A stretch of 64,000 nt of DNA from Leptolyngbya sp. NIES-3755 (GTDB lineage Bacteria; Cyanobacteriota; Cyanobacteriia; Leptolyngbyales; Leptolyngbyaceae), in contig AP017308.1 in assembly GCA_001548435.1 (NCBI GenBank), positions 3,605,030 to 3,669,029 on the forward strand, read 5' to 3'. The notes beneath the pieces were generated by a model. That model worked only from the letters and a program-made list of their open reading frames with translations, did not search any database and was not told the origin of the DNA. Both the position numbers and the translations under genes were made by a program. How positions within the stretch are numbered: the stretch's first letter is position 1; every line of letters begins with the position of its first letter. Of the stretch, positions 43,163-61,905 are shown piece after piece.

Positions 43163-46126
43163 CTAGTAGTATTGCCGAACGTATTCATAAGCTCGATCGA
43201 ATAAATCTTTCTCTTTATGCAATTTGTACTTGAAGAGGGTTTGGCGCAGAGCTTTTTGAACTTCGCGATCGCCAGCCACTGTATTCTGCCAACCGTCAAA
43301 TCGGGTGACTTTCACGACTTGATCAATGTCATCGACGATTCGCCCAATGATTTCAGGAGTATCAATCACCTTGGACTCCTGGAATAGCGTCGTCAAAGCC
43401 GTTTTTCCATCTTCGATTAGTTCAACATGGGTTTCTTGCTCGGTCTGTACGATTTCTCGTGCGACTTCTAGAAGTTGTTTGAGCCATTCAAGGCTTTCGA
43501 GGACACCCATTTCGTACTGGTTCTTGAGGCGTTCTAAGCGTTCGCCAAGTGCCTCGAAACGCGGATCGCCTTTGAATTTTCGCAGGCGGCGCTCGATCGT
43601 AATCTGGATCTCTAGTCCTTTACGCTTTCTATCGTCAACGGTTAATGTTTGTACCACGTCAGCATCGAGGATAAGGGGTTCTAAATCGTCGCGGATTTCT
43701 TTGACGGTGACATTGTTATAGATCAGTTCTAGCGTTTTGGGTCCGAGGGATTGCCAAATGAGACGACCAATACCGCTCACGGGTTGGATCGATTCGTAGA
43801 CTTGACTCAACCATTTGTAGTCCGCACGATACTGGCTCAGCATCTCGTCTGGCGACAGGATTTCCCAAAGGCGGCTGACTACGGAATAATCTGCGGCGAA
43901 TTCATCACGGAGTTCGTTGGTTTTGAGGCACTCTTGAGCCGCCATCAGTCCTGCATAGCCTTGGAGCGTACGATCGCAGTTGGGGAAATGAGAAAGGGCA
44001 GTCGCGATCGCAGTTGGAAATTGATCACGGAGTTCTTGGAGATTGGCGACTGTGCCTTTGATTTGTTTGGGATCGAAGTCGAGAGCTTTCGAGACATCAT
44101 CGAACACGCCTAAGTAATCGATGACTAAACCATTGTACTTGTTGGGATAGAGGCGATTGGTGCGGCAGATGGCTTGTAGGAGGGTGTGATCGCGTAGTGG
44201 CTTGTCGAGATACATCACCTTGCAAATGGGGGCATCGAATCCGGTGAGGAGTTTTGAGGTGACGATGAGCAGCTTGAGCGGGTCACTGGGATCGCGGAAT
44301 CGATTGAGGAGTTTTTCGAGGGCGGCTGCGTCTTTGTCGAGTTTTTGCCAGCGTTGATAGTCGGCTTGGGCGATCGCAATTTTTTTCTCGCGCCAGTCAT
44401 CAAGATCGCCAGGTTGCGTGACCATGACGACTTCGGTGGCTTCGGGAGTGAGCAGTTGATCGAGTAAGGCTTTCATCATGACGCAGGCTTCGCGATCGTA
44501 CATGACGACCTGACCTTTGAATCCGCTGGGTTCGATGTGGGTCTGAAAGTGGCGGGCGATGTCTTCGGCAACGGCTTGAAAGCGTTGAGGGGATTTGAGC
44601 AGGTGCGCGAGTCGTCCACCACGTTTGGAGAGTTCGATACGTCCGGATTCGTCGAGTCCTTCTTCTTGAGCCAGTTGCTCGAAACCTTCATTGATTGCGT
44701 CTTGATCGACGTGAAGCGGGACGAGGCGCGGCTCGAAGTGAACTGGGAGCGTAGCTTGGTCGCGGATGGATTGTTGATACGAGTAGTAGTTGAGGTAGCC
44801 GTTTTCGTCCTGCTCGGCTCCAAACCAGGCGAATGTATTGCGATCGCGGCGGGAGATGGGAGTTCCGGTTAAGCCGAAGAGGAAAGCATTGGGTAGGGCT
44901 TCACGCATTTTGAGACCGAGATCGCCTTCTTGGGTGCGGTGGGCTTCGTCTACTAAAACAATGATGTTGGGGCTGGGGTTGAGGGCTTGTTTGATTTGGG
45001 CGAATTTGTGAATTGTGGTGATGATAATTTGGCGGCTGCCTTTGCTGAGGAGTTGTTCGAGTTCTTCGCGGGAGTTGGCTTTGACGGTGTTGGGGACATC
45101 GGCGGCATCGAAGGTGGTGCCAATTTGGGTGTTGAGGTCTTTGCGATCGACCACGATCAAAACGGTCGGGTTTCTTAGTTCGGGTTGGGCTTTGAGCAAC
45201 TGTGCCGCGAAGACCATGAGGAGGGATTTACCAGAGCCTTGAAAGTGCCAGATTAAACCGCGTTTGATGATGCCTTGTGTGACGCGATCGACAATTAGTT
45301 TGGCGGCTTCGTATTGGGGATAGCGGGCGATCGTTTTGATTTTGCGACCGGAGCGGTTGACCGGAAAGATGGTGAAGTGTTTGAGCAGATCGAGGATGAC
45401 TTCAGGTTTGAGCATTCCGATCGCGGCTTTGCGGACTTCTTCGAGGGGATTGGGGGTGCGGTCTTCGGTTTCGCGCCAGGGGAGCCAGTCTTGGTAGGTG
45501 CTGTTGAGGGTGGCGTAGCGGTAGGTTTTGCCTTCGGAGGCGAAGCAGAAAATGTTGGGGACGAAGAGACCAGGGATGGTTTTCCAGTAGTCGTCAAGGA
45601 AGTCGATCGCGCCATCGACCCAGGAGATAGCAGGGCGGACGGGGGTTTTGACTTCGCCGATGACGATCGGGAAGCCGTTGACGAGGAGTACGATGTCCAT
45701 GCGCTTTTCGAGGTTAGGCGCAGGGGCGTAGGTGTATTGCTGGGTGATGATGAAGCGGTTTGAGATCGGGTTGTCGAAGTCGATCAGGGTGATGGGGACG
45801 TGTTCGTAATTGTTGCCGAAGGGCATACTTTTTTCGCCGCGTAGCCATTCGGTTAGCATTTCGTTGGCTTTGATCAGGTTGGTGCGGCTTTCTTGCAGGA
45901 TGATGGCGCGGAGATGGTAAAGAACTTCGTCGGCTTTGTTGGGGTCGGCGGCGATGTCGGGGTTAAATTTGATCAGGGCAGCTTTGACCATTGATTCAAC
46001 GAGTACATCGGTTTGGTTGCGTCCGAGTTTGCTGTGATGGATGTATTCCCAACGAAGACCGGGTAAGCGGGTGAGCGTATCGATGAGGAGTTGTTCGATC
46101 GTATTGGCTTCGTTGAAGGAGGGCAT
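43163..46126 (-). CDS. hsdR: Type I restriction enzyme, R subunit
   Basis: 987 residues, full length. The N-terminal nuclease shows Asp144 in KRMDIVLLV and Glu158-Val-Lys160 in IGEVKTP. The helicase motor has Walker A FQGSGKS (295-301), DEAH (393-396), LFGLTGTP and later helicase motifs (VTSKLLTGFDAP). The C-terminal ~250 residues are the helical domain that docks on the methyltransferase. It cuts unmethylated DNA after ATP-driven translocation. It is separated from hsdS by the vapBC/IS block, though still on the same strand. Confidence 0.95.
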   Translation of the reverse strand: MPSFNEANTIEQLLIDTLTRLPGLRWEYIHHSKLGRNQTDVLVESMVKAALIKFNPDIAADPNKADEVLYHLRAIILQESRTNLIKANEMLTEWLRGEKSMPFGNNYEHVPITLIDFDNPISNRFIITQQYTYAPAPNLEKRMDIVLLVNGFPIVIGEVKTPVRPAISWVDGAIDFLDDYWKTIPGLFVPNIFCFASEGKTYRYATLNSTYQDWLPWRETEDRTPNPLEEVRKAAIGMLKPEVILDLLKHFTIFPVNRSGRKIKTIARYPQYEAAKLIVDRVTQGIIKRGLIWHFQGSGKSLLMVFAAQLLKAQPELRNPTVLIVVDRKDLNTQIGTTFDAADVPNTVKANSREELEQLLSKGSRQIIITTIHKFAQIKQALNPSPNIIVLVDEAHRTQEGDLGLKMREALPNAFLFGLTGTPISRRDRNTFAWFGAEQDENGYLNYYSYQQSIRDQATLPVHFEPRLVPLHVDQDAINEGFEQLAQEEGLDESGRIELSKRGGRLAHLLKSPQRFQAVAEDIARHFQTHIEPSGFKGQVVMYDREACVMMKALLDQLLTPEATEVVMVTQPGDLDDWREKKIAIAQADYQRWQKLDKDAAALEKLLNRFRDPSDPLKLLIVTSKLLTGFDAPICKVMYLDKPLRDHTLLQAICRTNRLYPNKYNGLVIDYLGVFDDVSKALDFDPKQIKGTVANLQELRDQFPTAIATALSHFPNCDRTLQGYAGLMAAQECLKTNELRDEFAADYSVVSRLWEILSPDEMLSQYRADYKWLSQVYESIQPVSGIGRLIWQSLGPKTLELIYNNVTVKEIRDDLEPLILDADVVQTLTVDDRKRKGLEIQITIERRLRKFKGDPRFEALGERLERLKNQYEMGVLESLEWLKQLLEVAREIVQTEQETHVELIEDGKTALTTLFQESKVIDTPEIIGRIVDDIDQVVKVTRFDGWQNTVAGDREVQKALRQTLFKYKLHKEKDLFDRAYEYVRQYY

Positions 46127-46343: not shown

Positions 46344-46850
46344 ATGGTTGGAGTCACCCGGATTGAAATCCAAGAAAGTACAGATCAACTCAAACATCTG
46401 ATGCACTTACAAACCAGTGCCAGCGCAAAAGAACGATTACAAGTGCTGTACTTGCTGAAAAGCTTGCAGGCAAAAGATATCAGTACTGCGGCGCAACTGG
46501 TAGGACGAGACCGGACAACAGTACAGCGATGGATGTTGAAATACGAAGCACAGGGCATTGAGAAACTGCTTGCTCCGCGCACCGGGCAAGGACGCAAATG
46601 CACCATACCTGAAGCAGTCAATCAAGTATTAGTGGAGAAACTTGACGATCCAAATGGTGTGAGTAGCTATCTTGAGATTCAACAATGGCTGGAAACAGAA
46701 CATCAGTTGCAGGTGAAGTACTCCACGGTGCATCGCCATGTGCGCTACCGCTTGGGAGCAAAGTTGAAAGTTCCCCGTCCCGTCAACGAACTCGCCGATG
46801 AGCACGAACAACACGCTTTTCGTAAACACTTGCGGCACGGTTGGGCGTGA
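46344..46850 (+). CDS. IS630 transposase, first reading frame
   Basis: 168 residues: two helix-turn-helix units (DISTAAQLVGRDRTTVQRWM and a second, LEIQQWLETEHQLQVKYSTV) that bind the element's ends. It stops at 46850 after RHGWA, just before the catalytic part, which continues in the -1 frame. I see no slippery heptamer in the 46826-46850 overlap, so this may be a frameshift mutation rather than programmed recoding. Confidence 0.85.
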   Translation: MVGVTRIEIQESTDQLKHLMHLQTSASAKERLQVLYLLKSLQAKDISTAAQLVGRDRTTVQRWMLKYEAQGIEKLLAPRTGQGRKCTIPEAVNQVLVEKLDDPNGVSSYLEIQQWLETEHQLQVKYSTVHRHVRYRLGAKLKVPRPVNELADEHEQHAFRKHLRHGWA

Positions 46851-47401
46851 TGCGAATGGGGCGGTCTGAGCAAACGATCCGCTACTGGTGCCAAGATGAA
46901 ACCCGGCTCGGTCTGATGACGATTCATCGACGCAAGATCACCAATTGTGGAGTCAAGCCGATTGGCATTGAGCAATGGCAACGAGACACCTACTATCTCT
47001 ATGGCATCGTCGAACCGAAGACTGGGGACAGTTTTTTCTATGAGTTCTCGCACCTTGACCACATCTGCTTTGAGCAGTTCTTGAAGTTAGTGTCCGAGCA
47101 GTTTCCAGACAGTTTGAACATCATTCAACTTGATAACAGTGGTGCACACACCGCAGGCGATATCACGATTCCTGACAATGTATTGCTCGTGTTTCAGCCG
47201 CCTTATTCGCCCGAACTCAATCCGATTGAACGATTGTGGCAATACCTCAAAGATGATTTGGCATGGATGCGCTATGAAACCTTAGAAGCGTTGCGGCTCG
47301 ACGTGCGCGATTTGCTCAGTCATCTTTGTCAAAAGACGATCGCATCTTTGACTGGATACTGGTTCATCTTATCTGCTTTATCTGTAGCAGGTATTAATTG
47401 A
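46826..47401 (+). CDS. IS630 transposase, second reading frame (DDE domain)
   Basis: Open from 46826, possible TTG/ATG starts at 46841-46856. Catalytic residues: Asp in IRYWCQDETRLGL, Asp in HIIQLDNSG-type NIIQLDNSGAHT, and Glu in ELNPIERLWQYLK. With the upstream frame it forms a ~350-residue transposase. The product needs a -1 shift or separate initiation to be active. Confidence 0.85.
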   Translation, partial: TLAARLGVMRMGRSEQTIRYWCQDETRLGLMTIHRRKITNCGVKPIGIEQWQRDTYYLYGIVEPKTGDSFFYEFSHLDHICFEQFLKLVSEQFPDSLNIIQLDNSGAHTAGDITIPDNVLLVFQPPYSPELNPIERLWQYLKDDLAWMRYETLEALRLDVRDLLSHLCQKTIASLTGYWFILSALSVAGIN

Positions 47402-47408
47402 GATGGTA

Positions 47409-47720
47409 TAAGACAACGAGTGAGGCATCAGCGAAGTCCATTGGAAGATCGGCGTAGCTTTCCATCAGTTGAATTGCGCGATCGATATGAGACGACTGAA
47501 GATCGAAAACCTCAAAGGTACTCATGCCAATTCCACGCAAAAAGTTAATCTGCGCTGATTGACCAATTCTTCGACCGAGAAAATAGCAAGTTTCGGTGAT
47601 AACTGGATAGGTTGTGATGAGTGTTTCCTGAACAGAACTAAAGGCAATTTGAGCGGCAGCATTAAAGGAATCACGTCGATCGAAGAGTGCTACGAATGCG
47701 CCTGTATCAACGATGATCAT
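47409..47720 (-). pseudogene. vapC: vapC PIN-domain toxin, 5' part, split by the IS
   Basis: From ATG 47720 (overlapping the antitoxin stop as ATGA): MIIVDTGAFVALFDRRDSFN, VITETCYFLGRR, then MDFADASLVVL up to the IS. The PIN acidic residues are Asp in VDTG, Glu in TETCYF and Asp in DFADAS; the last, in TVDRRDF, is beyond the IS. VapC toxins cleave RNA. The insertion adds a few residues and stops the frame, so the toxin is probably dead. Confidence 0.88.
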
Positions 47721-48022
47721 AGGCAACCTTGATCGTGCTTCTCTTGCAAGTATTGATCAATAACAGCTTTGTAGTTCTGCGATGAATCTGGTTCACCGTC
47801 GATACATCCAACTAATCCTAGTTCTTGGAACGCTTCAAATGGTGTTTTTTTCTGGGTTTGTGAGCTTTGAGGCTGCTCTACGATCGACTGATTATCTTGA
47901 ACTTGATCGTAGTAAGCTGCGATCGCGGCTTTGAGGATCTCTGCCTGATTTTGGTTGGTTTGCTGCTGGATTTGCTGAAGTTGATGAATTGTTTCTTCGT
48001 CAAGTTGTGCGGTAATTTCCAT
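47717..48022 (-). CDS. vapB: VapB-type antitoxin (ribbon-helix-helix)
   Basis: 101 residues from ATG 48022 with GGAGA upstream. The start MEITAQLDEETIHQLQQIQQ followed by NQAEILKAAIAAYY is a ribbon-helix-helix DNA-binding fold. A Gln-rich linker leads to a C-terminal toxin-binding tail (FQELGLVGCIDGEPDSSQNY). It would repress its own operon and neutralise VapC. The toxin is broken, so it is now free to persist without a partner. Confidence 0.82.
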   Translation of the reverse strand: MEITAQLDEETIHQLQQIQQQTNQNQAEILKAAIAAYYDQVQDNQSIVEQPQSSQTQKKTPFEAFQELGLVGCIDGEPDSSQNYKAVIDQYLQEKHDQGCL

Positions 48023-48155
48023 TGAATTTCTCCGATCGTATTTTGATCTTAACTGTGCGATCACGAATTTCTACAAACGACCTTGCTCATCCTTTCTCTG
48101 CGTTTAGGTCTATGAAAATTGCGATTATTTGAGCCGGACAATCTGCCATGTTGGA

Positions 48156-49400
48156 TTAGACATGAGCTATTTCTCTTACTTCTACCGTACTGCCTAAATT
48201 CCCGTCAGCAGAAAGCAAAGAATTGACAATCTGTTTTTTCAAGTAATTTAGTTTCTCTGTGTGTTTTTGAAGTTGCTCAATTTCGGCATCTTGACTGTCA
48301 AAGACTTCTATTATCTGCTTCTGCTCGTGCTTAGGAGGCAATGGTATTTTTAAGGCAATCAATTTCTCGCGTGTTAGATGAGCAATGCTTGTCTGAGTAG
48401 TTATTTTATTCAGACGACCATCCAAAGCAGCAAAATTCATGTATCTAAGCATATATCCAGGCAAGATCTGATCACTCTTTGCACGAAGGCGATGTATTGC
48501 TTTTTGAAAATATACGTCTTTTGCTTGATCCTGCCAAATTGCTGTGCGTCCTACTTCGCCGCCCTCACACACAAGAAGATCGCCTAAAGTCAGCGAAAAT
48601 TTCTTGCGTTCCTCATCTGAGAAATCCATCCACTCCAAATCTGTTAAATCAAATTTATTCCATAGCACGTTTCGATTGGCTAAGTACTTGGCAGGAGATT
48701 TACCAGTTTTGGAGTCCTTGTTGAGCATTTTGCCCAGTTGAGCATCGAATAAGTCGCCTACTTGCTTCACTTTCCAAGTTGACGGAAGATCTCCCAGCTC
48801 AGTGTGAATGTACTCCGTGTGCTCAATCCCTCTAATGAATACTTCCTGCATCAAAATCTGCTTGAGATCCTCAGCAGATCTGATCGATACCTCCGTCGCA
48901 GCAATAGCATCCTCGATCGCTTGAAACAACTCCACCATTTCCTTTTGTTTATCGATCGGTGGAATCAGAAACTCTTGTGCAGCAAGCACCTTCCATTTGA
49001 TTGTTGGTGATAGTGAACCCTCTGAAATTGCGATCGCTCGATCAAAAAACAAATCTGACTGCATGAAAAACGGCAGAAATCCTGGTACTGTCGCTGTCGG
49101 GTTTGCCTCTAACACCATTGCATGAGCCGAGCAAATGCCATCAAAATCAGCCACCGCCACTTTGCGCTGATATGCTCGACGCTTTCCAAAAATAATCTGT
49201 CCTGGCTTAACTCGCAATTTGGTTGCATTCACATCGTCAGGAGTTCCGCGTCTTCTGATCTTCAAACTGCCTGGATCAAGATGCTCTAGCCCTACGTAAA
49301 CTTCGACTCCTGCCGCTTTAGGATCATCAACGCGATCGCTAATGTGAAAGGCTAATTCTTCAAAACGTAGTTTTCTCCACCCATTCGGTAACTCAGACAT
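48156..49400 (-). CDS. hsdS: Type I restriction enzyme, S (specificity) subunit
   Basis: 414 residues with the usual two target-recognition halves: LPNGWRKLRFEELAFHI...first domain to ~175 with the conserved spacer helix (DKQKEMVELFQAIEDAIAAT), then LPSTWKVKQVGDLFDAQLG...second domain and spacer (KHEQKQIIEVFDSQDAEIEQ). It chooses the bipartite DNA target and joins two M subunits. It lies between hsdR and the two hsdM genes, ~2.9 kb from the latter. Confidence 0.93.
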   Translation of the reverse strand: MSELPNGWRKLRFEELAFHISDRVDDPKAAGVEVYVGLEHLDPGSLKIRRRGTPDDVNATKLRVKPGQIIFGKRRAYQRKVAVADFDGICSAHAMVLEANPTATVPGFLPFFMQSDLFFDRAIAISEGSLSPTIKWKVLAAQEFLIPPIDKQKEMVELFQAIEDAIAATEVSIRSAEDLKQILMQEVFIRGIEHTEYIHTELGDLPSTWKVKQVGDLFDAQLGKMLNKDSKTGKSPAKYLANRNVLWNKFDLTDLEWMDFSDEERKKFSLTLGDLLVCEGGEVGRTAIWQDQAKDVYFQKAIHRLRAKSDQILPGYMLRYMNFAALDGRLNKITTQTSIAHLTREKLIALKIPLPPKHEQKQIIEVFDSQDAEIEQLQKHTEKLNYLKKQIVNSLLSADGNLGSTVEVREIAHV

Positions 49401-49573: not shown

Positions 49574-49870
49574 ATGTCCAAAGTTTTAGAAGACCGCAAG
49601 AACAATCTGTTTATCTACATCTATTCAGATGATCATCTTCCACCGCACGTCCATGTATTTGTAGGACGAAAGAAAAGCCGAAGCGATAAGGATATCAAGA
49701 TCAGCATTGGAAACGACGCGATCGCGCCTGAGATCCTTGCTGCACATCCAAAAATTAAAAATACTGATATTCGTAAAGCCTGGGAATTAGTCGCTGATCA
49801 CCAGGATGAACTATTAATCAAATGGGAAGAAATACATGGCTCAGAAAAAATGGAGAAAGGAGATCACTGA
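49574..49870 (+). CDS. DUF4160 protein
   Basis: 98 residues from ATG 49574. The motif YSDDHLPPHVHV is the signature of DUF4160. It overlaps the following DUF2442 gene by 35 nt. Such pairs are common in accessory regions and have been suggested to be toxin-antitoxin-like; I know of no settled activity. It runs opposite to the restriction genes. Confidence 0.85.
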   Translation: MSKVLEDRKNNLFIYIYSDDHLPPHVHVFVGRKKSRSDKDIKISIGNDAIAPEILAAHPKIKNTDIRKAWELVADHQDELLIKWEEIHGSEKMEKGDH

Positions 49871-50285
49871 TGAGCAAATAGAAGCCCAGATTAGCAAGGC
49901 GAAGGCAGCTTGGGTTGAAGCGGCTTCGACAGAACCTCGTGCTGAGTCTGTGAGCTTTGATTCTGAGAGATTGATATATACGATCGATCTATCAACAGGT
50001 GTCCAACTCTCTTTTCCAGCTACTTTAATTCGAGAAATCGCCGAAGCCCCAGTAGAAGACTTATCTGATGTACATCTTTCTGGAGTGGGCAACAGCATTC
50101 ACTGGGAGAAATTAGACGTTGACTTTAGCATTCCTGGACTGATTTTCAGAATATTGGGGACACAGGTATCAATGTCTGTGTTAGCAAGGCAAGGCGGCAA
50201 AAAGAGTTCTGTTGCAAAAGCAGAGGCAGCGAGGCAGAACGGGAAGAAAGGTGGACGACCTCGGAAGAACAAAGTACCCGTTTAG
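49836..50285 (+). CDS. DUF2442 protein
   Basis: 149 residues from ATG 49836. The core RLIYTIDLSTGVQLSFPATL ... SGVGNSIHWEKLDVDFSIPG is the DUF2442 pattern (..L.W..LD.D.S). The tail is basic and Gly/Lys-rich (ARQNGKKGGRPRKNK), suggesting nucleic-acid binding and making it the likely antitoxin of the pair with DUF4160. Confidence 0.85.
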   Translation: MAQKKWRKEITDEQIEAQISKAKAAWVEAASTEPRAESVSFDSERLIYTIDLSTGVQLSFPATLIREIAEAPVEDLSDVHLSGVGNSIHWEKLDVDFSIPGLIFRILGTQVSMSVLARQGGKKSSVAKAEAARQNGKKGGRPRKNKVPV

Positions 50286-50585: not shown

Positions 50586-50861
50586 ATGAGCGAATCAAAA
50601 GAATGGTCACTAATTAAACGCACTCTGGGATGGGCTTACATCGTTCTAGAGGAACTTACCATGTCCCAACCCTCGAACAGTGTTGATCCTATTACCAAAA
50701 ATAAAATGGAGCAGGCAAAAACCAAGATTGCTGAGACTTTGCGAAATCCAGCGGTTGAAGTAGCTGCTCAAAACGTGGAGTATCAATCTTTAGTTCAAAA
50801 ACTGCAAGCTGCGGATATGCCCATCACAGATGAGCGAATTGACAGGGCAAAGAGGCTTTGA
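50586..50861 (+). CDS. Small hypothetical protein
   Basis: 91 residues from ATG 50586 (GAGGAG upstream); a second ATG at 50661 (GAGGAA upstream) is also possible. The helical C-terminal part (TKIAETLRNPAVEVAAQNVE, MPITDERIDRAKRL) has no known domain. The minus-strand frame across 50315-50623 is less convincing. Confidence 0.4.
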   Translation: MSESKEWSLIKRTLGWAYIVLEELTMSQPSNSVDPITKNKMEQAKTKIAETLRNPAVEVAAQNVEYQSLVQKLQAADMPITDERIDRAKRL

Positions 50862-50908
50862 GATTGATTTCTTAGCCTCTCTAGTCAATCATTCTCCACA
50901 GGCGCATT

Positions 50909-51730
50909 TCATGGAGAATTAGTTTCTATTCTTGCAATCAGTTTGCTCAAATAATCTTTTAGGATCTTCTTAGCTCGTTCCCGGTGTTCTTCTCTCAATA
51001 GATTGGCAACACTGGGACGATCAACTAAGTGATTTCTGACATACCTAATCGCCTTGACGTAATACTCTTTCTTCGGTGATGCCTCATTTGGATATCTCTG
51101 CCTAATCTCGCAAAATGGCATTTCTCTGCGGTTCCTGATGCTAATCATTAACCAAGCTTTGAGATAAACGTAAATATCTTGGCAAAATAGCTCCAAACGC
51201 ATATTCTTTATTTCCTCATTAGAAGCATCTTGTTTACCCAATGCTTCTAAGCAGGCGCGAAGAGCAATATTTTGAAGAAGCTCATCCTCATCTCCTAATG
51301 CTCTTCCGATCTCGTCGTGAGCTAATGAATCTTCTAGCAATTCTAGGTGCGACGAATCGCTCCATAATTTTAAGGAGGGATTGCCCCTCTTAAAGTCAAA
51401 CCGCAGTGGCACGTTCTTTTCAATCAGCGCATAATACTCCCAATTCTGCCGCTCTAAGACTCCCTCAGATGTTTGAGTTTTGTCGCGCTCTTTGAGTTCT
51501 TTGTCTTTAGCATCCTCTATTGCACCCACCACTAGCGCGTGTACCATGTCCCAAGAAAAAGCCAACATGAGACCTGCGTAGACTAATTCCAAACCAGAAT
51601 CATTTTCAAAAGTTTTGGACAACCAGCGCGACAGCACAAAGGCAGCAAAGATAAGAAATAACGTTGTTGCTACTGCCCATTCCTTACTCGTCCGCAGCCG
51701 TTTACGATAACGCACCCTTGAAAGAACCAT
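50909..51730 (-). CDS. Two-pass membrane protein, unknown
   Basis: 273 residues from ATG 51730. Two transmembrane helices lie near 20-38 (AVATTLFLIFAAFVLSRWL) and 48-72 (LELVYAGLMLAFSWDMVHAL). A ~200-residue cytoplasmic helical domain follows with many charged residues (EIGRALGDEDELLQNIALRA, KILKDYLSKLIARIE). No family is recognised. It sits inside the restriction island, between hsdS and hsdM. Confidence 0.6.
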   Translation of the reverse strand: MVLSRVRYRKRLRTSKEWAVATTLFLIFAAFVLSRWLSKTFENDSGLELVYAGLMLAFSWDMVHALVVGAIEDAKDKELKERDKTQTSEGVLERQNWEYYALIEKNVPLRFDFKRGNPSLKLWSDSSHLELLEDSLAHDEIGRALGDEDELLQNIALRACLEALGKQDASNEEIKNMRLELFCQDIYVYLKAWLMISIRNRREMPFCEIRQRYPNEASPKKEYYVKAIRYVRNHLVDRPSVANLLREEHRERAKKILKDYLSKLIARIETNSP

Positions 51731-51807
51731 CTATAACCTCCGAAGGTATACTTGATAGCTACCATTGAAACCTTTCTAAAGCGTTCATCACGATGTAGTG
51801 ACTCCGA

Positions 51808-52182
51808 TTATTTATCTAGCGATCGCATTATCTGTTTCAACAATTCAGCTTCTTCCTCCTCTGCTTTGCGAATCCGAGCGATCATATACGAAGCAGTATT
51901 TTTGCTCACCCCGACCTCTTGAGCAAGTCGGCGTACACTAATCACCCGAAATGGGTTCAACACTAATTTAATTGCATGAAACCATTTCTGTAAATCTACA
52001 TGAGTTTGATGAAACAGAGTGCCTACTGTAACGCTGTACGACGTAAAGCAATCGTTACAGTGATATCTTTGTTCTGTCTTAAAAGCTGCTGCATTGGTTG
52101 AACCGCAATACGGGCATTGAGGCTTCCCATTCCAACGAATGCTTTCTAGCAAATGCAAACATTCCTGATGAGTTTTTGACAT
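51808..52182 (-). CDS. Zinc-ribbon/HTH protein derived from an IS1595-type transposase
   Basis: 124 residues from ATG 52182. CPYCGSTNAAAF...YHCNDC is the zinc ribbon, then YSVTVGTLFHQTHVDLQKWF and VRRLAQEVGVSKNTASYMIA, the helix-turn-helix that opens IS1595/ISXO2 transposases. The catalytic DDE domain is absent, but the end is clean (KQIMRSLDK) with no sign of decay. It could be a domesticated DNA-binding regulator in the hsd locus, or just a truncated IS. Confidence 0.7.
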   Translation of the reverse strand: MSKTHQECLHLLESIRWNGKPQCPYCGSTNAAAFKTEQRYHCNDCFTSYSVTVGTLFHQTHVDLQKWFHAIKLVLNPFRVISVRRLAQEVGVSKNTASYMIARIRKAEEEEAELLKQIMRSLDK

Positions 52183-52290
52183 AGCGCAAAGAATCAAAAT
52201 CGAGCTTCACGCTAATCAAAAGCCCAATCTGACCCCTGTTACGCAGAACATCAGGTTAAATCAGTTACGTTCGACAATCCGCACCAATTT

Positions 52291-53769
52291 TTAGACGGTG
52301 TACCCTGTCTGTTTTAATACTTGAAACAGCGCATCCGTCTGCTGCTTGACTAAGATCCGGCTGTCCTGCCACGCCTGCTGTGCGGCAGAAACATCATATT
52401 GCCGATGCTCATTTCCAATGCGTGTGTAAAGCGGAATGCTGAGATTGTGATGATTCTTCCGAATCTTCTCTAACTCAACCAGTCGAGCAATGTCCGCGTG
52501 TTCCTGCGGCTCAAAGTAAGCCCCCAGTAGCTTTGCTTCATTCGCAGGTGATAAAAAGCTTTGTGCCCGTTCTCGTGTCACCTGCTGAACCCCTTCAACA
52601 AACAGAATCTTTCCTCGTCGCTCAGACGATTTCTGCGATCGCAGCACCACAACACAAGCCTCCATCGGCGAGTTGTAAAACAAATTCGCGCCCAGTCCGA
52701 TCACCGCTTCCACCAAATCCGCTTCTACGATCGCTTTTCGCATTTCGACTTCCGAATCCCGAAACAAAATGCCATGCGGGTACAAAATCGCCGCCCGTCC
52801 CGTATCTGGCTTCAAACTCGCCAAAATATGCTGAAAAAACGCATAGTCCGCGTTCCCTTGAGGCGGCGTACCAAACTGATTGCGCTGAAACGGATCAGCC
52901 GCGAACTTCTCCCGATTCCATCGCTTCACGCTATACGGTGGATTCGCCAGCACCAGATCAAATTGCTTTAAGCGATCGCCCTCAATAAACTTCGGCTCAT
53001 CCAAGGTATTGCCGCGTTGAATCTCAAATTCTTCAATATCATGCAGAAACAAATTCATCCGAGCGATCGCACTCGTAATCAAATTCACTTCCTGACCATA
53101 CACTTTCACATTACGATGCTCTTTCCCCCGCTTCTTTAGCTCCAGCACCGCATTCAACAGCATTCCACCCGATCCACAGGTCGGATCGTAAATCGATTCC
53201 CCACTCTGCAACTCCAACAATTGCGTCATCAAATGCACAACCGTTCGATTGGTATAAAATTCGGCTGCCGTATGTCCAGAATCATCGGCAAACTTCTTGA
53301 TCAAAAACTCATAAGCGTTCCCCAGTTGATCTTGAGGCACATTCGCAATGCTGAGATCATGAGTACTGAAATGCTCGAACAACCGCAGCAGCAACGCATC
53401 TGGTAATCGATCGCGATTCGTCCAAGGTGCATCCCCAAAAACGCCGTAAAGCTTATCAGGATTCGCCTTCTCAATCTCGCGCATCGCGTTCTGAATCGCT
53501 TGACCCACCTGAGAGGTCTTTTGCCTGACATCATTCCATCGCTGCCCTTTCGGAATCACAAAGCGATGCTGCTCCGGCAGTTCCGCGTATTCTTCATCTC
53601 CACCAAACGCCGTCACTGCCTGCTCAAATTCTTCGTCATACACATCACACAAGCGTTTGAAGAACAGCAGTGGAAAAATAAACTGCTTATAGTCCGACGC
53701 ATCAATCTGTCCGCGCAGCAGTTCTGCGGCTCCCCACAAATACTTTTCCAGTTCTGCCTGCGTCATCAT
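52291..53769 (-). CDS. hsdM: Type I restriction enzyme, M subunit (first copy in map order)
   Basis: 492 residues. N6-adenine methyltransferase: SAM-binding motif I DPTCGSGG (195-202) and catalytic motif IV NPPY (276-279), with the N-terminal helical HsdM domain (FPLLFFKRLCDVYDEEFEQA). Its ATG overlaps the stop of the other hsdM gene (ATGA), so the two are translated together. The two proteins share layout but differ at many positions, so this is an old paralogue, not a recent duplicate. Confidence 0.95.
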   Translation of the reverse strand: MMTQAELEKYLWGAAELLRGQIDASDYKQFIFPLLFFKRLCDVYDEEFEQAVTAFGGDEEYAELPEQHRFVIPKGQRWNDVRQKTSQVGQAIQNAMREIEKANPDKLYGVFGDAPWTNRDRLPDALLLRLFEHFSTHDLSIANVPQDQLGNAYEFLIKKFADDSGHTAAEFYTNRTVVHLMTQLLELQSGESIYDPTCGSGGMLLNAVLELKKRGKEHRNVKVYGQEVNLITSAIARMNLFLHDIEEFEIQRGNTLDEPKFIEGDRLKQFDLVLANPPYSVKRWNREKFAADPFQRNQFGTPPQGNADYAFFQHILASLKPDTGRAAILYPHGILFRDSEVEMRKAIVEADLVEAVIGLGANLFYNSPMEACVVVLRSQKSSERRGKILFVEGVQQVTRERAQSFLSPANEAKLLGAYFEPQEHADIARLVELEKIRKNHHNLSIPLYTRIGNEHRQYDVSAAQQAWQDSRILVKQQTDALFQVLKQTGYTV

Positions 53770-55259
53770 ACGTCCAACCCTGCCTTTTTCAGTAATGCCT
53801 CTAACCGTTCTTCCGCCTGAGCTTGCAGCTTTAAACTCTCCTGGAGTTGTGCGATCGCTTCCTGGACACTCATCCCTTGCTCAACCTGTTCCTTCTGAAT
53901 GTACCGACTGATGTTGAGGTTGTAGCCGTGTGATTCAATCTCTTGCAGCTCGACCGATCGCGAAATGCCTGTAATCTCTTGTCGATCGCGACAAATCGCA
54001 TAAATCTGATCTGACTGCTCCGGGGTTAGCGTATTTTGCGATCGACCTTTCGTATAAATCTCGCTGGCATCAATGAAAAATACCTTTTCACGATCGCTCA
54101 CTGCTTTACGATCGCGCATCACCAAAATGCACCCAGGAATCCCCGTTCCATAAAACAAGTTCGATCCCAAGCCAATAATCGCCTCAATATAATCTTCAAT
54201 CAGCAATCGCTTCCGAATCTCTCCCTCTTTTCCGCCCCGAAACAACACCCCATGCGGCAACACCACAGCCATGCGCCCTTTTCCTGGTTTGAGCGATTTC
54301 ATCATGTGCATCACCCAGGCAAAATCCCCGTTACTATCCCCAGGCAATCCGAACACATTGCGAGCGTAAACATCACTAATCCACTGATCCCGTCCCCATT
54401 TTTTCAGGCTAAACGGTGGATTCGCCAATACACAATCAAACTGCTCCAAGGCATCCCCCACATGGAATGCAGGCTCTTGCAGCGTGTCGCCACGAACAAC
54501 CTTAAAATCCTCAACGCCATGCAGAAACAGATTCATGCGGGCAATCCCCTGCGTCGTCAAGTTCCGCTCTTGCCCCCGAATCACAAGATTGCGCCACTCT
54601 CCCTGGCTTTCTCGCACATGATGAATCGCTTCTAGCAGCATTCCACCCGTTCCACACGCCGGATCGTAGATGCTTTCCTTTGATCGTGGATCAAGAATGT
54701 TCACCATCAACCGCACGATCGTTCGAGGCGTATAAAACTCTCCTGCCTTCTTATTAGAGCTATCCGCGAACTTCTTAATCAGGTACTCATACGCCTGACC
54801 CATCATATCTTCCCGCACATGAGCATTCGCCAATCGAATCTGGTTAAAATGCTCCAGCAGCTTTTTCATCAACGAATCAGGCAACCGCTCAGTATTCGCC
54901 CATTGAGCATCGCCAAAAATCCCATATAGCGCGTCTGGATTCGCCTTTTCCAGTTCTCTCAGTGCCGTCTGTAGTGCAAATCCAATCTGTTCATCTCGCT
55001 CAAACACATTCCGCCAATGATGTCCTTCTGGCACTTGAAAGCGGTGATTCTCTGGGAAAGCCGCAAACTCTTCGCCATACGTTTCCTGAATCTGCTGATA
55101 CTCTTCGTCATACACATCACAGATGCGCTTAAAAAACAGTAGAGGAAAAATATAGCTTTTGAAGTCAGCCGCATCGATCGGACCTCTGAGCAGATTGGCT
55201 GCGTCCCAGAGATGTTGCTGAAGTTGTGAGAGTGAGTACGAAGATTCGAGAGATTGCAA
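53766..55259 (-). CDS. hsdM: Type I restriction enzyme, M subunit (second copy)
   Basis: 497 residues from TTG 55259, chosen because AAGGAAG precedes it and no in-frame ATG lies before conserved sequence. Motif I is DPACGTGG (199-206) and motif IV NPPF (280-283); FPLLFFKRICDVYDEEY is shared with its paralogue. NPPF instead of NPPY is also found in active N6-adenine enzymes. The C-terminus (SVQEAIAQLQESLKLQAQAE) has an extra helix. It is the upstream member of the coupled pair. Confidence 0.95.
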   Translation of the reverse strand: MQSLESSYSLSQLQQHLWDAANLLRGPIDAADFKSYIFPLLFFKRICDVYDEEYQQIQETYGEEFAAFPENHRFQVPEGHHWRNVFERDEQIGFALQTALRELEKANPDALYGIFGDAQWANTERLPDSLMKKLLEHFNQIRLANAHVREDMMGQAYEYLIKKFADSSNKKAGEFYTPRTIVRLMVNILDPRSKESIYDPACGTGGMLLEAIHHVRESQGEWRNLVIRGQERNLTTQGIARMNLFLHGVEDFKVVRGDTLQEPAFHVGDALEQFDCVLANPPFSLKKWGRDQWISDVYARNVFGLPGDSNGDFAWVMHMMKSLKPGKGRMAVVLPHGVLFRGGKEGEIRKRLLIEDYIEAIIGLGSNLFYGTGIPGCILVMRDRKAVSDREKVFFIDASEIYTKGRSQNTLTPEQSDQIYAICRDRQEITGISRSVELQEIESHGYNLNISRYIQKEQVEQGMSVQEAIAQLQESLKLQAQAEERLEALLKKAGLDV

Positions 55260-55334: not shown

Positions 55335-55793
55335 CTAATTTCTAGATTTATTCCAGCCCTCGAAGCTCTGTTTCAATTGTTCATGCCGCATTCGAGATGC
55401 GATCGCGACTCGATTTCCTTTCTTCGCATTACAAGTCCAGCACAGCATAATCAAATTCTGCTTGTCCAATGCCAACTTTGGAAACAACGACTTTGGCAAA
55501 ACGTGATCTACGGTTGGGTGGTTCGGCTGGAGCAGAAAATCCCCATTTGCCAGATAAACCGTCTGACCCAATTCCATGAGCTGATTACAGCAATTACACC
55601 GCCAGTTCTGCCGCTCTAGCTGCTTCGCTCTCCACTGCTTCCAATCGGCTGTATTGCGCCACTGTTCGTAAAGCAGCCTGCCATCTTTACGCTGTTGTCT
55701 CAAGGCATTCTGTAGCTGTTTCGCCTGGGTAAACTTCTGATCAATCTCAGATAAGTCAATGCTCGATCGCATCATCTCATCAAAACTGCTCAT
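55335..55793 (-). CDS. HNH endonuclease
   Basis: 152 residues from ATG 55793. CNCCNQLM, then TVDHVLPKSLFPKLALDKQN and LIMLCWTCNAKKGNR give the full HNH fold with two CxxC zinc pairs, the catalytic His of VDH and the Asn of DKQN. It nicks or cuts DNA. It overlaps the upstream gene by ATGA, so the two are coupled, and lies ~75 nt before the hsdM pair. Possibly an extra nuclease arm of the defence island. Confidence 0.85.
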   Translation of the reverse strand: MSSFDEMMRSSIDLSEIDQKFTQAKQLQNALRQQRKDGRLLYEQWRNTADWKQWRAKQLERQNWRCNCCNQLMELGQTVYLANGDFLLQPNHPTVDHVLPKSLFPKLALDKQNLIMLCWTCNAKKGNRVAIASRMRHEQLKQSFEGWNKSRN

Positions 55794-57579: not shown

Positions 57580-59691
57580 TTAGCGATCATGTTCGATCTC
57601 GTTCTGGCGCAGCATTATCCTGGCTTGCTCAAAATATTCGTAATCATTTTGGGTCAGTTGTTGCCCGCTGGGTAGCCTATCTGAATTGATGGAAATCTCA
57701 AGAATTGGTTTGGAGTTTCCTTTTCGATGAAGGTAAAGTAAGCCATCTGCTTGAGAGACATCATATTGCTGACCCACGATTGCTTGTGGCGCTCCAGCAC
57801 TCCGCCAGGTATCAAGGACTGCCTCGCCAATCTCGATCGCCCAGTGCTTCTGCTGAATAATCTGAAATCGCTCGACATCAGATTCAGTCAATCCAAAGCC
57901 CTGCGGTAATTGGGTTGCATCTAGAGGAAACCGACCGATCTCTTGTCCATCCTTCCGAGTTAGCGAGATGTGATCATCATGCTGTAACAAAATGTAGTGA
58001 GTGCCATTGATGTTGCCTATTTGAGCCAGCCAACGAATTTCAGCGGCGATCGTTTCAGCAAACCGTTGTTGTCGCAAGAACTCAGACTCTTGTGGCTCTG
58101 GGTCTGCAACCTGCCAGAATTCGATGGCTCCGATCGTTTCTCCGCTGTCCTCTTCGCGTTCAGGCTCAATTAGTTGAGGAGGCGCATCAGCGATCAACCT
58201 CTGGTTTAGCCAGCGATCTAAGTCTTGCCAGTTCTCTAGGTCACGATCGGTAATTCCCTGAAATAGTTGAAGATTCATCTCGCTATTTTCACACCGAACG
58301 TTATAAGTGCTTGTCAGATGGTCGCGGCTGACCAAATAAGCACAACCGCTCACCTCAATGCGATAAACCCATTCCAGCGTATCGGAATTTACTTCATGCA
58401 GTGGTTCACCAATTTCGAGGTAGTACTCGAACAGGCGAACCGCGATCGATTCAATCAAGTTTGCTGCATCTATTTGGCGATCGACGGTTTGAATAGACTC
58501 CGAATCATTTGGTAAAAACTGAGCGATCGACACTTGATCGTCCCAGTAAGATTCAAATACATCAATTAAATCTGTAACGCTCTGTTCTCCTTGCTGAAAT
58601 TCTTTGCTCACTGGCGCTTCTTCAACCTGCTCATCAGAAATTGATGGGATCACGAACGGGAGATCAGGCAGGTCTGTGGTGTGTTCTGCGAGAATCGCTT
58701 CGATTAGATCATCGAGATTTTCAGTCGGACGTGGTTCAAGTGCGGATTCTCGCTCTTCCGGCGTAAGTGGTATTTGCTGACATAGTTCTTGAATGCGATC
58801 GTTATCTCGCTCAGTTTCATAACTCAAGCCACTATTGCGCTGTAATCCAGGAAAGCTGTAGCGATTTCCCAATCGATTTCCTGCCATTGGCACGTCATCA
58901 AGTATGTAACTGATGCCTTTTGGCTTACCTGTGCGAGTGAAATCAACTCGAACGCCAATCCCATCTAGCAACAGTTTCTCGATCAATTCTGGAATGGTTC
59001 GGCTGATAGCGATCGCTCGGTCTAACACATTTTGGATTTGCTTTTGAACACTGGGTCTTCCGGTTTCAAGTTCAGTTTGAATTTGTCGGCGTGTTTCGGC
59101 TTTACGTCCAACCTCCCAGCTATTTTCCAGCACTGACAATCCATACTGCCGTTCTAAATCACGCAGAATTTTCTGAGCGCGATAGTAGTCGTATGACGTG
59201 GAAAGCGCTTGCTCGGTTTCAAGATTGATTTTGCTGGCGATGATATGTGCGTGGGCGTGATCGGCATCCACATGACGCACGATCGAATATTGATATTTGT
59301 GCAATTCTTCATTCTGAAATTGATCGACCGCAGCGCGAAATGTTGAAGCATCGAAATCCTTGAGCAAATTGGGTTGCTGTGCCGACAAAATCAGTGCAGC
59401 CGTGAAAGACTCGCAAAGCTGAGAAAGATTTTCATCGGATAAATCCTCATGCGGTGGAAGTGCGATCGAGATGTGGTACACCGGACGCTTAATCTCACGA
59501 TTGAGATCCGCCGATATCATGAACTGCTTCACTGTGACATCAATCAGCGCTTTCAATTGCACATCAGATAACTGATCGCGCTCCAGCCACGGTGCAGCAT
59601 TGCCGCCGATAATCCGCGCTCCGCTCTTTCCCACCGCATAGCTAAATGTGGCGCGAAACGAATGATTTTGCATGATCTTCGCGATCGTCAT
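57580..59691 (-). CDS. Relaxase (MOBP-type mobilisation nuclease)
   Basis: 703 residues. The relaxase domain covers ~1-260: candidate catalytic Tyr18 (FSYAVGK), motif II RPVYHISIALPPHEDLSDEN, and the metal-binding His triad in RHVDADHAHAHIIASKIN (140-157). The C-terminal ~400 residues have repeats of a wing-like unit (RHDHLTSTYNV-type and WAIEIGEAVLDTW), function unknown. It nicks oriT and leads the strand during transfer. Its ATG overlaps the MobC-like stop (ATGA). Confidence 0.9.
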   Translation of the reverse strand: MTIAKIMQNHSFRATFSYAVGKSGARIIGGNAAPWLERDQLSDVQLKALIDVTVKQFMISADLNREIKRPVYHISIALPPHEDLSDENLSQLCESFTAALILSAQQPNLLKDFDASTFRAAVDQFQNEELHKYQYSIVRHVDADHAHAHIIASKINLETEQALSTSYDYYRAQKILRDLERQYGLSVLENSWEVGRKAETRRQIQTELETGRPSVQKQIQNVLDRAIAISRTIPELIEKLLLDGIGVRVDFTRTGKPKGISYILDDVPMAGNRLGNRYSFPGLQRNSGLSYETERDNDRIQELCQQIPLTPEERESALEPRPTENLDDLIEAILAEHTTDLPDLPFVIPSISDEQVEEAPVSKEFQQGEQSVTDLIDVFESYWDDQVSIAQFLPNDSESIQTVDRQIDAANLIESIAVRLFEYYLEIGEPLHEVNSDTLEWVYRIEVSGCAYLVSRDHLTSTYNVRCENSEMNLQLFQGITDRDLENWQDLDRWLNQRLIADAPPQLIEPEREEDSGETIGAIEFWQVADPEPQESEFLRQQRFAETIAAEIRWLAQIGNINGTHYILLQHDDHISLTRKDGQEIGRFPLDATQLPQGFGLTESDVERFQIIQQKHWAIEIGEAVLDTWRSAGAPQAIVGQQYDVSQADGLLYLHRKGNSKPILEISINSDRLPSGQQLTQNDYEYFEQARIMLRQNEIEHDR

Positions 59692-60128
59692 TTCGCAAGT
59701 TGCTCCTTAATCTCGTCCAGAGTTTGCAGAATTTGAGCAAGAAGCTTTTGATCACTCGCCAATAGTATTGGAATTGATCGACTATGGAGTTTACGAACGG
59801 CTTGATTTAGATTCGATCCAATGCGATTGAGTTCAATCAGAATTTGACGATCAAGAGAAGATGATTTTTGGTGCGGTCGGGGTTGGGGTAATGGTTCATC
59901 GTAGAGACGCGATCGTACACAGTCAGAAAACAACACGCCTTGATCTTCGCACCACTGTTTGAGTGCCTGATTTTTGTCGCGAGGCACACGACAGGACAGT
60001 AATTCAGTTTGAGGTTTTTTAGCAGGCAGAATTGGTTCAAGCAACGATTCTAATGCTTTCCGATCTCGAACTTGATGCGTTGAGTCAGAACCACTTAAAT
60101 CATTGTTCCGTGACTTAAATCGAGCCAT
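59688..60128 (-). CDS. MobC-like relaxosome protein
   Basis: 146 residues from ATG 60128. The N-terminal part holds a ribbon-helix-helix-like RVPRDKNQALKQWCEDQGVL; the C-terminal LIELNRIGSNLNQAVRKLHS (E.N.IG.N.NQ..R.L) is the MobC/BmgB signature. It helps the relaxase open oriT. The frame extends upstream to 60245 through the oriT-like sequence, but the conserved part begins at 60128. Confidence 0.85.
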   Translation of the reverse strand: MARFKSRNNDLSGSDSTHQVRDRKALESLLEPILPAKKPQTELLSCRVPRDKNQALKQWCEDQGVLFSDCVRSRLYDEPLPQPRPHQKSSSLDRQILIELNRIGSNLNQAVRKLHSRSIPILLASDQKLLAQILQTLDEIKEQLAK

Positions 60129-60453
60129 ACGACCTCTTGGATGGGAGAGGGGTTTCCAAAGGGGACATCCCCTTTGGCGAGCAGCGCAATCACAGCGTAG
60201 CTGGGAGGTGATACCGCAGGTGTCATACAGCGCATTGCTCGCCAACGCGCTCCACCCGTTGAATAAATAGTACGCTAATCCTACCGCAAATTAGCGTGTT
60301 CGGGGCGGCGCTCAGCTACAAAGCGTTAAGATTGCTTCTACGATCGATTGACCAGTAAATAGGACAGCACACAAGACATTTAGCAGGACATCTCTTAAAC
60401 ATCCACAATCCCTAAAGTGGGCACTAGAATGAGAAAAATTAGGAGTCTTGAAA
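60129..60453. other. Candidate origin of transfer (oriT) between divergent mob genes
   Basis: The spacer holds nested inverted repeats: CCAAAGGGGA/TCCCCTTTGG (60156-60165 and 60168-60177) and TTGGCGAGCA/TGCTCGCCAA (60174-60183 and 60236-60245). It lies between the MobC-like gene and a divergent small gene, where oriT is usually found in MOBP systems. The nick site is not identified. Confidence 0.6.
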
Positions 60454-60775: not shown

Positions 60776-61807
60776 CTAATAACTACCGTTCTGCATCCAG
60801 GTATCTACTTGACCTTGAATGCTACCTTTGAGTTGTCTGAATTGATGATTTGCTTCTTCTCCGAATCCACCCGCTTCAGTATGGCGGATCAGCGATTGAA
60901 TAATCGGAGTCGCAATACTCAAGCCGAATAAAGCATTAAAGCCAGCTACGACCGCAGGCGCAGATAACAGCACTGCAAATTCAGGCAGCAAAGCCAGCAC
61001 TGCAATGAAGATTACGAAGAAAATTGGCGTACTCAAGCCAACGCTTTTCGCAGTTTCCCAGATTAAGTCTCGGTATTCTTTGATCGTGATGTCGCCACGG
61101 TAGAGATCTAAAGAGTATGCGATCGCAACGACGATCACCTGAGTCAGCGTTGCCGTCAGGGTGACGGTGATGCCCATTTTTGCGATCGTGCCTGAGTTTC
61201 TCAGAATTGAATCCACCGCGTTGTAAATGCGAATATAAACCTGCTCACCGCTTGTCATCGTTCTTGCACCACGGCGAATATTATCGATGCCAACTTCCCA
61301 AACAATGTTATCCGCCGCGTTAGATCCACCTTGCGCGTGGGGCTGAATGTGGCTGCCATGCTTATCAGACAGAAATTGACGAATTGTGGTTTGTGGATCG
61401 CGACCCAGTTTGGAAGTTGCCGGAATTTTATCGAACAACTTCATGACCTCAGCATCTGCTCTAGGTGAATCTGTAATGCGAACTCCTGCACGTCTTAAGC
61501 GTTGAGCAACTTTCGGCATTTCTCGCGCTAACCCTTCGACGGTTTGAGGGAGGGCTGCAAGTGCGATCGCAAATTGGCTTCCGGTTGCACCTAGACTCGC
61601 GGCTGTATTACTGACTTGATGAGCCGTTTGATTGACGATCGCGGATGAGTCTTGTGTCCATTGCTCGATCGTTTCCGCGCTGGAAGATACAAAACCAGTG
61701 GTCGCTTCTTTTGCAATGTCGATCGCTTCACTGGCTTTCTGAGCCGTTTCCTGAGCAGTGCTTTGGGCAGCCTGCAAAAATTTCTTCGATTCACGCAGAA
61801 AATCCAT
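60776..61807 (-). CDS. Membrane protein with HNH-like stretch, partner of a dynamin-like GTPase
   Basis: 343 residues from ATG 61807 (TGAGGA upstream; a GTG four codons earlier is possible). Residues ~10-110 form an amphipathic Ala/Thr/Gln-rich coiled coil. Then SDKHGSHIQPHAQGGSNAAD and NIVWE (~150-175) resemble the HxxP..QGG...N core of HNH nucleases. Two or three transmembrane helices follow (VTLTATLTQVIVVAIAYSL, TPIFFVIFIAVLALL, AVLLSAPAVVAGFNALFGLS). It lies 98 nt after the dynamin-like gene on the same strand. Membrane-bound effector is a guess. Confidence 0.65.
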   Translation of the reverse strand: MDFLRESKKFLQAAQSTAQETAQKASEAIDIAKEATTGFVSSSAETIEQWTQDSSAIVNQTAHQVSNTAASLGATGSQFAIALAALPQTVEGLAREMPKVAQRLRRAGVRITDSPRADAEVMKLFDKIPATSKLGRDPQTTIRQFLSDKHGSHIQPHAQGGSNAADNIVWEVGIDNIRRGARTMTSGEQVYIRIYNAVDSILRNSGTIAKMGITVTLTATLTQVIVVAIAYSLDLYRGDITIKEYRDLIWETAKSVGLSTPIFFVIFIAVLALLPEFAVLLSAPAVVAGFNALFGLSIATPIIQSLIRHTEAGGFGEEANHQFRQLKGSIQGQVDTWMQNGSY

Positions 61808-61905
61808 CTCAATCCTCACAATTACTCATTCAATTCATGCGATCGCTGGTCAGCACAATTTTCATTTCAGACAGGTCTGAAATATAGCCAGTCCGCTATA
61901 TCAAT

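Follow-up and report, generated by a model that had tools for sequence, protein, structure and literature searches.

The m6A/m4C subgroup of type I restriction-modification systems was reportedly first described by Morgan et al. in 2016. Members of this subgroup have two M subunits, an M1 with the motifs AGEF and NPPF that produces N6-methyladenine (m6A), and an M2 with the motifs AAEF and NPPY that produces N4-methylcytosine (m4C) (PMC9613975). The non-canonical m6A/m4C system PacII is represented by crystal structures of its M1M2S complex (PDB 7vru/7vs4), a heterotrimer in which target recognition domain (TRD) 1 of the S subunit binds CCC beside M2, the adenine half-site being bound by TRD2 beside M1 (PMC9613975). 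PacII M2 was found not to be strictly selective, as adenine was also methylated if an A target was given. In addition, asymmetric gating was described for PacII, and the arginine at the position of M2 R29 was stated to be conserved among M2 subunits, in contrast to M1 (PMC9613975). Two M genes are also present in a type I locus of a cyanobacterium, Ssp6803V on plasmid pSYSX of Synechocystis PCC 6803; these are described as encoding the two terminal portions, N and C, of a single split M, with m6A produced on both strands (PMC7296061).

Here we describe a locus within a 64,000-nucleotide stretch of DNA from Leptolyngbya sp. NIES-3755 (the window), in which all positions below are given unless another contig is named. 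Based on its gene content, gene overlap, homology, conserved residues, clade membership and co-occurrence, all of which were observed directly, we consider it very probable that this is a complete type I locus of the m6A/m4C (PacII) subgroup, with M1, M2 and S at 1:1:1, M2 producing m4C and M1 producing m6A, together with HsdR. The preliminary description of this DNA had presented the two M genes as an anomaly against the norm of one M subunit; the arrangement is that of an already described, PacII-type subgroup (PMC9613975). The locus is a known kind of system with a solved structural answer, and what is new is the cyanobacterial member that it adds to the subgroup.

Gene content of the locus

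The two hsdM genes encode proteins of 497 aa (hsdM1, TTG start) and 492 aa (hsdM2, ATG start) and overlap by exactly ATGA, which holds the TGA stop of M1 and the ATG start of M2 (Table 1). The Pfam domains HsdM_N and N6_Mtase were identified in each protein above the cut-offs, and TIGR00497 (hsdM) was the top NCBIfam match for both, at 237.2 and 219.3 bits, below its curated cut-off of 242.75. M1 has AGEF at residue 172 and NPPF at 280, and M2 has AAEF at 168 and NPPY at 276. Alignment of the two proteins gave 48% identity (233 identical residues among 489 aligned; E 3e-173), so they represent paralogues rather than the two parts of a split gene. A split M gene such as that of Ssp6803V was ruled out, as both M genes in the window are full length. 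The canonical type I arrangement, a single hsdM used twice, is not that of the window locus. Earlier claims of two full-length paralogues, one NPPF and one NPPY, overlapping by ATGA were right to the base in positions and overlap, and the single hsdS and hsdR reported nearby were both found downstream on the same strand, hsdS at 2.9 kb from hsdM2 and hsdR at 2.0 kb from hsdS.

Table 1. Features of the type I locus and the genes within it (positions in the window).
Feature	Position	Strand	Basis
hsdM1, NPPF/AGEF-type M subunit (predicted m6A)	53766..55259	-	best PDB match PacII M1; signatures
hsdM2, NPPY/AAEF-type M subunit (predicted m4C)	52291..53769	-	best PDB match PacII M2; signatures; clade
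zn129, IS1595-type Zn-ribbon/HTH protein	51808..52197	-	Pfam PF12760 above cut-off; NCBIfam IS1595 model below cut-off
tm273, no family match; two TM helices predicted at the N-terminus from hydropathy	50909..51730	-	
small91, convergent to tm273	50586..50861	+	relatives adjoin those of tm273 in L017, G394, G413 and G405
DUF4160/DUF2442 pair, toxin-antitoxin candidates, upstream of hsdS	49574..50285	+	DhiT match weak, below cut-off
hsdS, two target recognition domains; TRD1 PacII-like, TRD2 divergent	48156..49400	-	PDB match PacII S; TRD1 contacts
RHH/PIN (VapBC-like) pair, between hsdS and hsdR	47394..48064	-	
Transposase between hsdS and hsdR, made up of an HTH frame and a DDE_3 frame that overlap	46344..47401	+	
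hsdR, HSDR_N nuclease and SWI2/SNF2-type motor, uninterrupted	43163..46126	-	TIGR00348 E 3.9e-151, above cut-off

The nuclease and motor expected of a type I HsdR were both present in the hsdR product, with GSGKS at 297, DEAH at 393 and the EVK of the nuclease motif. The zn129 protein is too short to include a transposase DDE domain, and its likely ATG start is at 52182. Based on its HTH/DDE_3 domain pair, we take the transposase between hsdS and hsdR to be IS630-type. Co-expression of hsdS and hsdR with hsdM2 is not assured, with cargo genes and an IS standing between them.

Comparison with the PacII subunits

Searches against all PDB chains placed each M protein nearest its own PacII counterpart. 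The top match of M1 was PacII M1 (7vru_A, E 6.3e-191, 639 bits versus 459 for 7vru_B), that of M2 was PacII M2 (7vru_B, E 6.2e-211, 704 bits versus 450 for 7vru_A), and that of HsdS was PacII S (7vru_C, E 8.6e-68). The locus also shares with the subgroup its NPPF/AGEF and NPPY/AAEF paralogues and an HsdS with a PacII-like cytosine TRD1, and an R subunit is present in both systems. It differs from PacII in its unlike TRD2, in an arginine (Arg25) of M1 where PacII M1 has threonine, and in the cargo genes between M2, S and R, which are a feature of the window.

By analogy with PacII, M1, M2 and S would form a 1:1:1 methyltransferase, in which M1 would bind S first and M2 would be recruited next, helped by translational coupling as suggested by the ATGA overlap. 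M2, positioned at TRD1, would produce m4C in a CCC-like half-site, and M1 at TRD2 would produce m6A in the half-site of the opposite strand. By the example of PacII, M1 and S without M2 would still give partial m6A, and M2 and S without M1 would give no methylation (PMC9613975, citing the 2016 work). Two HsdR subunits would complete a restriction enzyme that cuts DNA without both marks. We infer this chemistry, target, stoichiometry and activity. One of the two readings offered in the preliminary description, a heterodimer with one M per half-site, gains support from the homology to PacII M1M2S, the conserved residues, the phylogeny and the synteny, with M2 the predicted m4C subunit; the NPPF/NPPY difference had been noted there, the prediction of m4C had not.

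The HsdS of the window retains in TRD1 the six PacII contact residues that we checked (R74, R75, Y77, Q78, K80 and H93). Among 50 HsdS rows, two of these columns varied, namely H93 (25 H, 23 D, 2 T) and Q78 (38 Q, 12 L); the remaining four were nearly invariant (48 to 50 of the 50 rows). Mean identity to the window over the same rows was 49% for TRD1 and 18% for TRD2. Conservation of TRD1 and not of TRD2 would be in line with a cytosine half-site that changes less than the adenine half-site, and the lack of conservation in TRD2 means that the adenine half-site is not predictable.

As PacII M2 is able to methylate adenine, the choice of base is not fixed by NPPY alone. It is conceivable that the heterodimer produces m6A on both strands, with M2 keeping NPPY and TRD1 presenting an adenine, and both the relaxed selectivity of PacII M2 (PMC9613975) and the variation of TRD1 contacts among relatives are in keeping with such an enzyme. 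We consider this very unlikely, however, as the window TRD1 keeps all the contacts checked, H93 included. The variation of the TRD1 contacts within the family and the scores of both M proteins below the NCBIfam hsdM cut-off also count against the assignment of an m6A/m4C system.

Residue columns of the M proteins were compared in 36 M1 and 36 M2 rows, the window counted. The last residue of motif IV was Y in 36/36 M2 and F in 36/36 M1. The column of PacII M2 H175 had H in all 36 M2 and K in 35 of the 36 M1, and the second residue of AAEF in M2 was A in 33/36 and Q in 3/36. Arginine occupied the R29 column in every M2 row (R19 in the window M2) and in 3/4 canonical M rows. The M1 rows were divided, with R in 16/36, including R25 of the window, and T in 20/36. 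The 20 threonine rows formed one clade (100/99) beside the M1 of the window, a clade that we call PacII-like, tentatively, as PacII M1 has threonine there and the tree was made without a PacII row. Among these 36 M1 rows, the statement in the PacII paper that the arginine is not conserved in M1 is true only for the threonine clade. Since the window M1 has R25 where PacII M1 has threonine, the asymmetric gating of PacII may differ here, and the confinement of threonine to one clade of 20 of the 36 rows bears on the generality of the published gating.

Co-occurrence and phylogeny of M1 and M2

Relatives of M2 were taken from a scan of genome_contigs, in which 578 were confirmed; the best 80, i.e., the nearest only, were studied. 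All 80 of these M2 proteins, from many phyla, were of the NPPY type. By our filter, 72 of the best 80 of 578 loci had an NPPF M1 upstream of M2 in the same orientation, and the number was 73 with the inclusion of L095, whose full M1 had been dropped by the filter. Of the other seven of the eight loci without M1 by the filter, six have M2 less than 2 kb from the contig start (L020, L058, L065, L072, L075 and L089), and in L024 the contig ends 2 kb before M2, with two other ORFs filling this interval. M1 and M2 overlapped by 4 bases in 19 of the 70 loci measured from this set and were separated by gaps of more than 250 bases in 29 of the 70, so coupling is common and not required. The M2 type is rare in the phylum (5/386 genomes, E<=1e-120) and was found in 3/42 genomes of the family (E<=1e-110), the genome of the window counted in each case. 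This locus also seems to be present in G422, a genome of the window's family.

A tree of 76 rows was constructed from M1 and M2 of 32 of the 67 loci in which both were full length (the first in order), the window and loci L098, L139 and L142, along with four canonical M proteins. Rows with X were skipped, hence L017, the nearest relative, is absent. M2 formed one side of a branch (100/99) that included the window protein, and members from Pseudomonadota, Planctomycetota, archaea and the genome of the window were together in this clade, apart from M1. The M1 rows were mixed with canonical M, although M1 may have had a single origin. M2 as a derived subunit fits this tree, subject to the caveats of an unfixed root and of flagged long branches.

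Two further origins of the gene pair were considered. A recent tandem duplication of hsdM without division of labour might be imagined from the adjacency of the genes and their 48% identity; the membership of the window M2 in a clade shared with other phyla and separate from M1 led us to reject it, and we regard it as hardly credible. Alternatively, as the preliminary description had proposed, two type I systems, one of which now lacks its own S and R, might share a single HsdS and HsdR, and the genome does contain other type I loci. We rejected this also, and see almost no chance of its being correct. M1 and M2 travel together, in 73 of the best 80 of 578 loci across many phyla, and the same 14 loci clustered on both the M1 and the M2 sides of the tree. 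This is the outcome of the survey of M-clade co-occurrence that had been suggested at the outset.

The other S and M genes of the genome also bear on sharing. We searched its 6.76 Mb in 4 contigs (the window is on contig C1) and identified ten matches each for Methylase_S and N6_Mtase, including those of the window. The S genes at C1:758914, C2:300628 and C2:203400 are near M genes or M fragments of their own, and the S at C1:1258184 is in the same frame as a methylase domain. At C1:5781246 (G000, L003 238-2037), a single ORF encodes the N-terminal and motor domains of HsdR and, after them, one Methylase_S domain; we rejected it as an intact hsdS and consider this HsdR-S fusion ORF a remnant, likely formed by deletion. 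A second hsdS pairing with one of the two hsdM had been named earlier as a result that would speak against the heterodimer, and among the S places inspected none needed M1 or M2. Motif IV of the genome's other M genes was NPPF wherever it was read (the N6_Mtase matches at C1:4155379 and C1:5274090 were left out), in further disagreement with sharing.

M2-S fusions in related loci

In ten of the best 80 of 578 loci (L037, L048, L062, L065, L067, L072, L081, L083, L093 and L094), M2 and S were in one open frame of 780-957 aa. The S profile matched these fusions with E 2.5e-89 to 4.1e-130, that of L072 being cut by the contig end. M1 was upstream in eight of the ten, in pieces in L094, and L065 and L072 begin near a contig end. 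The fusions join M2 to the TRD1 end of S, which is where M2 sits in PacII (PMC9613975), and there must therefore be at least one M2 per S in those loci. These natural fusions tie one M2 to each S. The first half of the PADLOC model PDLC03038 (896 aa) matched the window M2, with TRD1 after it, so the fused form is already in databases. An engineered parallel is the EcoKI hsdM-hsdS fusion termed type IMS, which differs in having one kind of M and does not have the arrangement of the window (PMC3510504).

A recurrent cargo slot between M2 and S

The spacing of M2 and S was determined in 79 of the best 80 of 578 loci, L038 having been dropped as its M2 is cut by the contig end. The genes were fused in 10 loci, there was no S in reach in 10, S was within 60 bases of M2 in 26, and the gap exceeded 500 bases in 33. 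A gap of this size in 33 of the 59 loci with a separate S represents a recurrent cargo slot.

We scanned 59 slot proteins against Pfam. Of these, 57 came from the 69 ORFs in the M2-S intervals, and L166, which belongs to the same genus as the window, supplied two more; the four of L077, near-identical in place to those of L076, and short or reverse-strand ORFs were omitted. There were matches to 44 families. Among the 25 listed were DUF4062, AlbA_2, the DUF1016/YhcG nuclease, AbiEii, HipA_C and RloB, and also subtilase and general HTH and AAA domains. We read the slot as holding, among others, putative defence and toxin-antitoxin families. A literature search on accessory genes or cargo associated with hsdM and hsdS returned nothing on this topic as judged from titles and the opening of abstracts.

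The nearest relative among the best 80 of 578, L017 (Leptolyngbya sp. ULC077bin1), likewise has the order M1-M2-cargo-S-R, with an M2 77% identical to that of the window, and its slot contains relatives of zn129, tm273 and small91. It differs in TRD2, which is 29% identical over the matched part, and in having S and R 127 bases apart without PIN/RHH genes or an IS between them; its M1 is incomplete in the assembly owing to unread bases.

The separation of S from R and M in the window by a transposase and toxin-antitoxin-like genes could indicate a locus of the right kind, compatible with a PacII-type identity, that has decayed and is non-functional after being broken by cargo and IS. We consider this quite unlikely. 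None of the four genes is interrupted and their motifs are present, the changes between the window and L017 were concentrated at third codon positions in M2, R and TRD1, and large M2-S gaps are frequent among the separate-S loci, as described above.

The three-gene cassette in the slot

The slot of the window contains zn129, tm273, small91 and DUF4160/DUF2442. The first three of these form a cassette (50586-52197) that was also located at L017 3397-5140, L158 815-2480, L159 8356-9874 and L160 6652-8289. It is inside a type I operon in two loci, those of the window and L017, and outside the M2 locus in three (genomes G394, G413 and G405). Identities between the cassettes of L017 and the window were 61-62% for zn, 30-34% for tm and 31-36% for small. 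The zn of the window is 87% identical to that of G394 and about 61% identical to that of L017. Since zn is nearer to G394 while M2 is 77% identical to L017, the histories of the cassette and the operon may differ.

In G394 (L158 2097-2635), window-like DNA continues past the cassette into a relic of the 3' end of hsdM2. The relic scored 61 versus 31 for the best of 200 shuffles, with 17 upstream stretches tested, and suggests a past linkage of cassette and M2. A candidate M2 tail in G413 was borderline among these 17, with a score of 25 that was reached by 1/200 shuffles, and the other 15 had chance-like scores. No clear pair of terminal repeats was found around the cassette.

Genes for zn homologues were more widespread (18/386 genomes of the phylum, E<=1e-15) than those for tm273 (2/386, E<=1e-5). 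There were 21 distinct zn neighbourhoods after six zn places were left out and a Calothrix plasmid was recognized as the same record as G091:C2. A downstream gene whose product has an N-terminal hydrophobic segment was present in 15/21, and sequence matches to tm273 were present in 6/21. The tm273 protein is a fast-evolving two-TM protein that resembles the other TM proteins following zn homologues only in position and topology. Alignment with hhalign of tm273 and two relatives gave no link to these other TM proteins (probability 1.7% for the L128/L129 pair, about the control level). An AlphaFold model of tm273 from two sequences had a mean pLDDT of 43, too poor for a fold search. No relatives of tm273 were confirmed in viral_contigs, and there were none in plasmids at E 1e-5. 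Neither zn129 nor tm273 matched the PADLOC models, and we found no literature on an IS1595 zinc ribbon in cyanobacteria. Based on the company it keeps, we speculate that the cassette might be an uncharacterised cyanobacterial defence or toxin-antitoxin-like module that rides in the slot of the m6A/m4C operon and also stands alone, a proposal that is tentative and that we hold to be somewhat doubtful.

Genes flanking the locus

hsdM1 is closely preceded, in the same orientation, by an HNH endonuclease gene (55335-55793), whose product had weak PtuB-like PADLOC matches. Beside the locus, at 57580-60245, there are matches to a MobA/VirD2-like relaxase and, weakly, to MobC; as these are on a chromosome-sized contig, they may mark a mobilizable element that has integrated here. 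A gene for a 347 aa protein without a family (60776-61819) is next to that for a dynamin-like GTPase (61906-63993), whose match to PF00350 was just below the cut-off.
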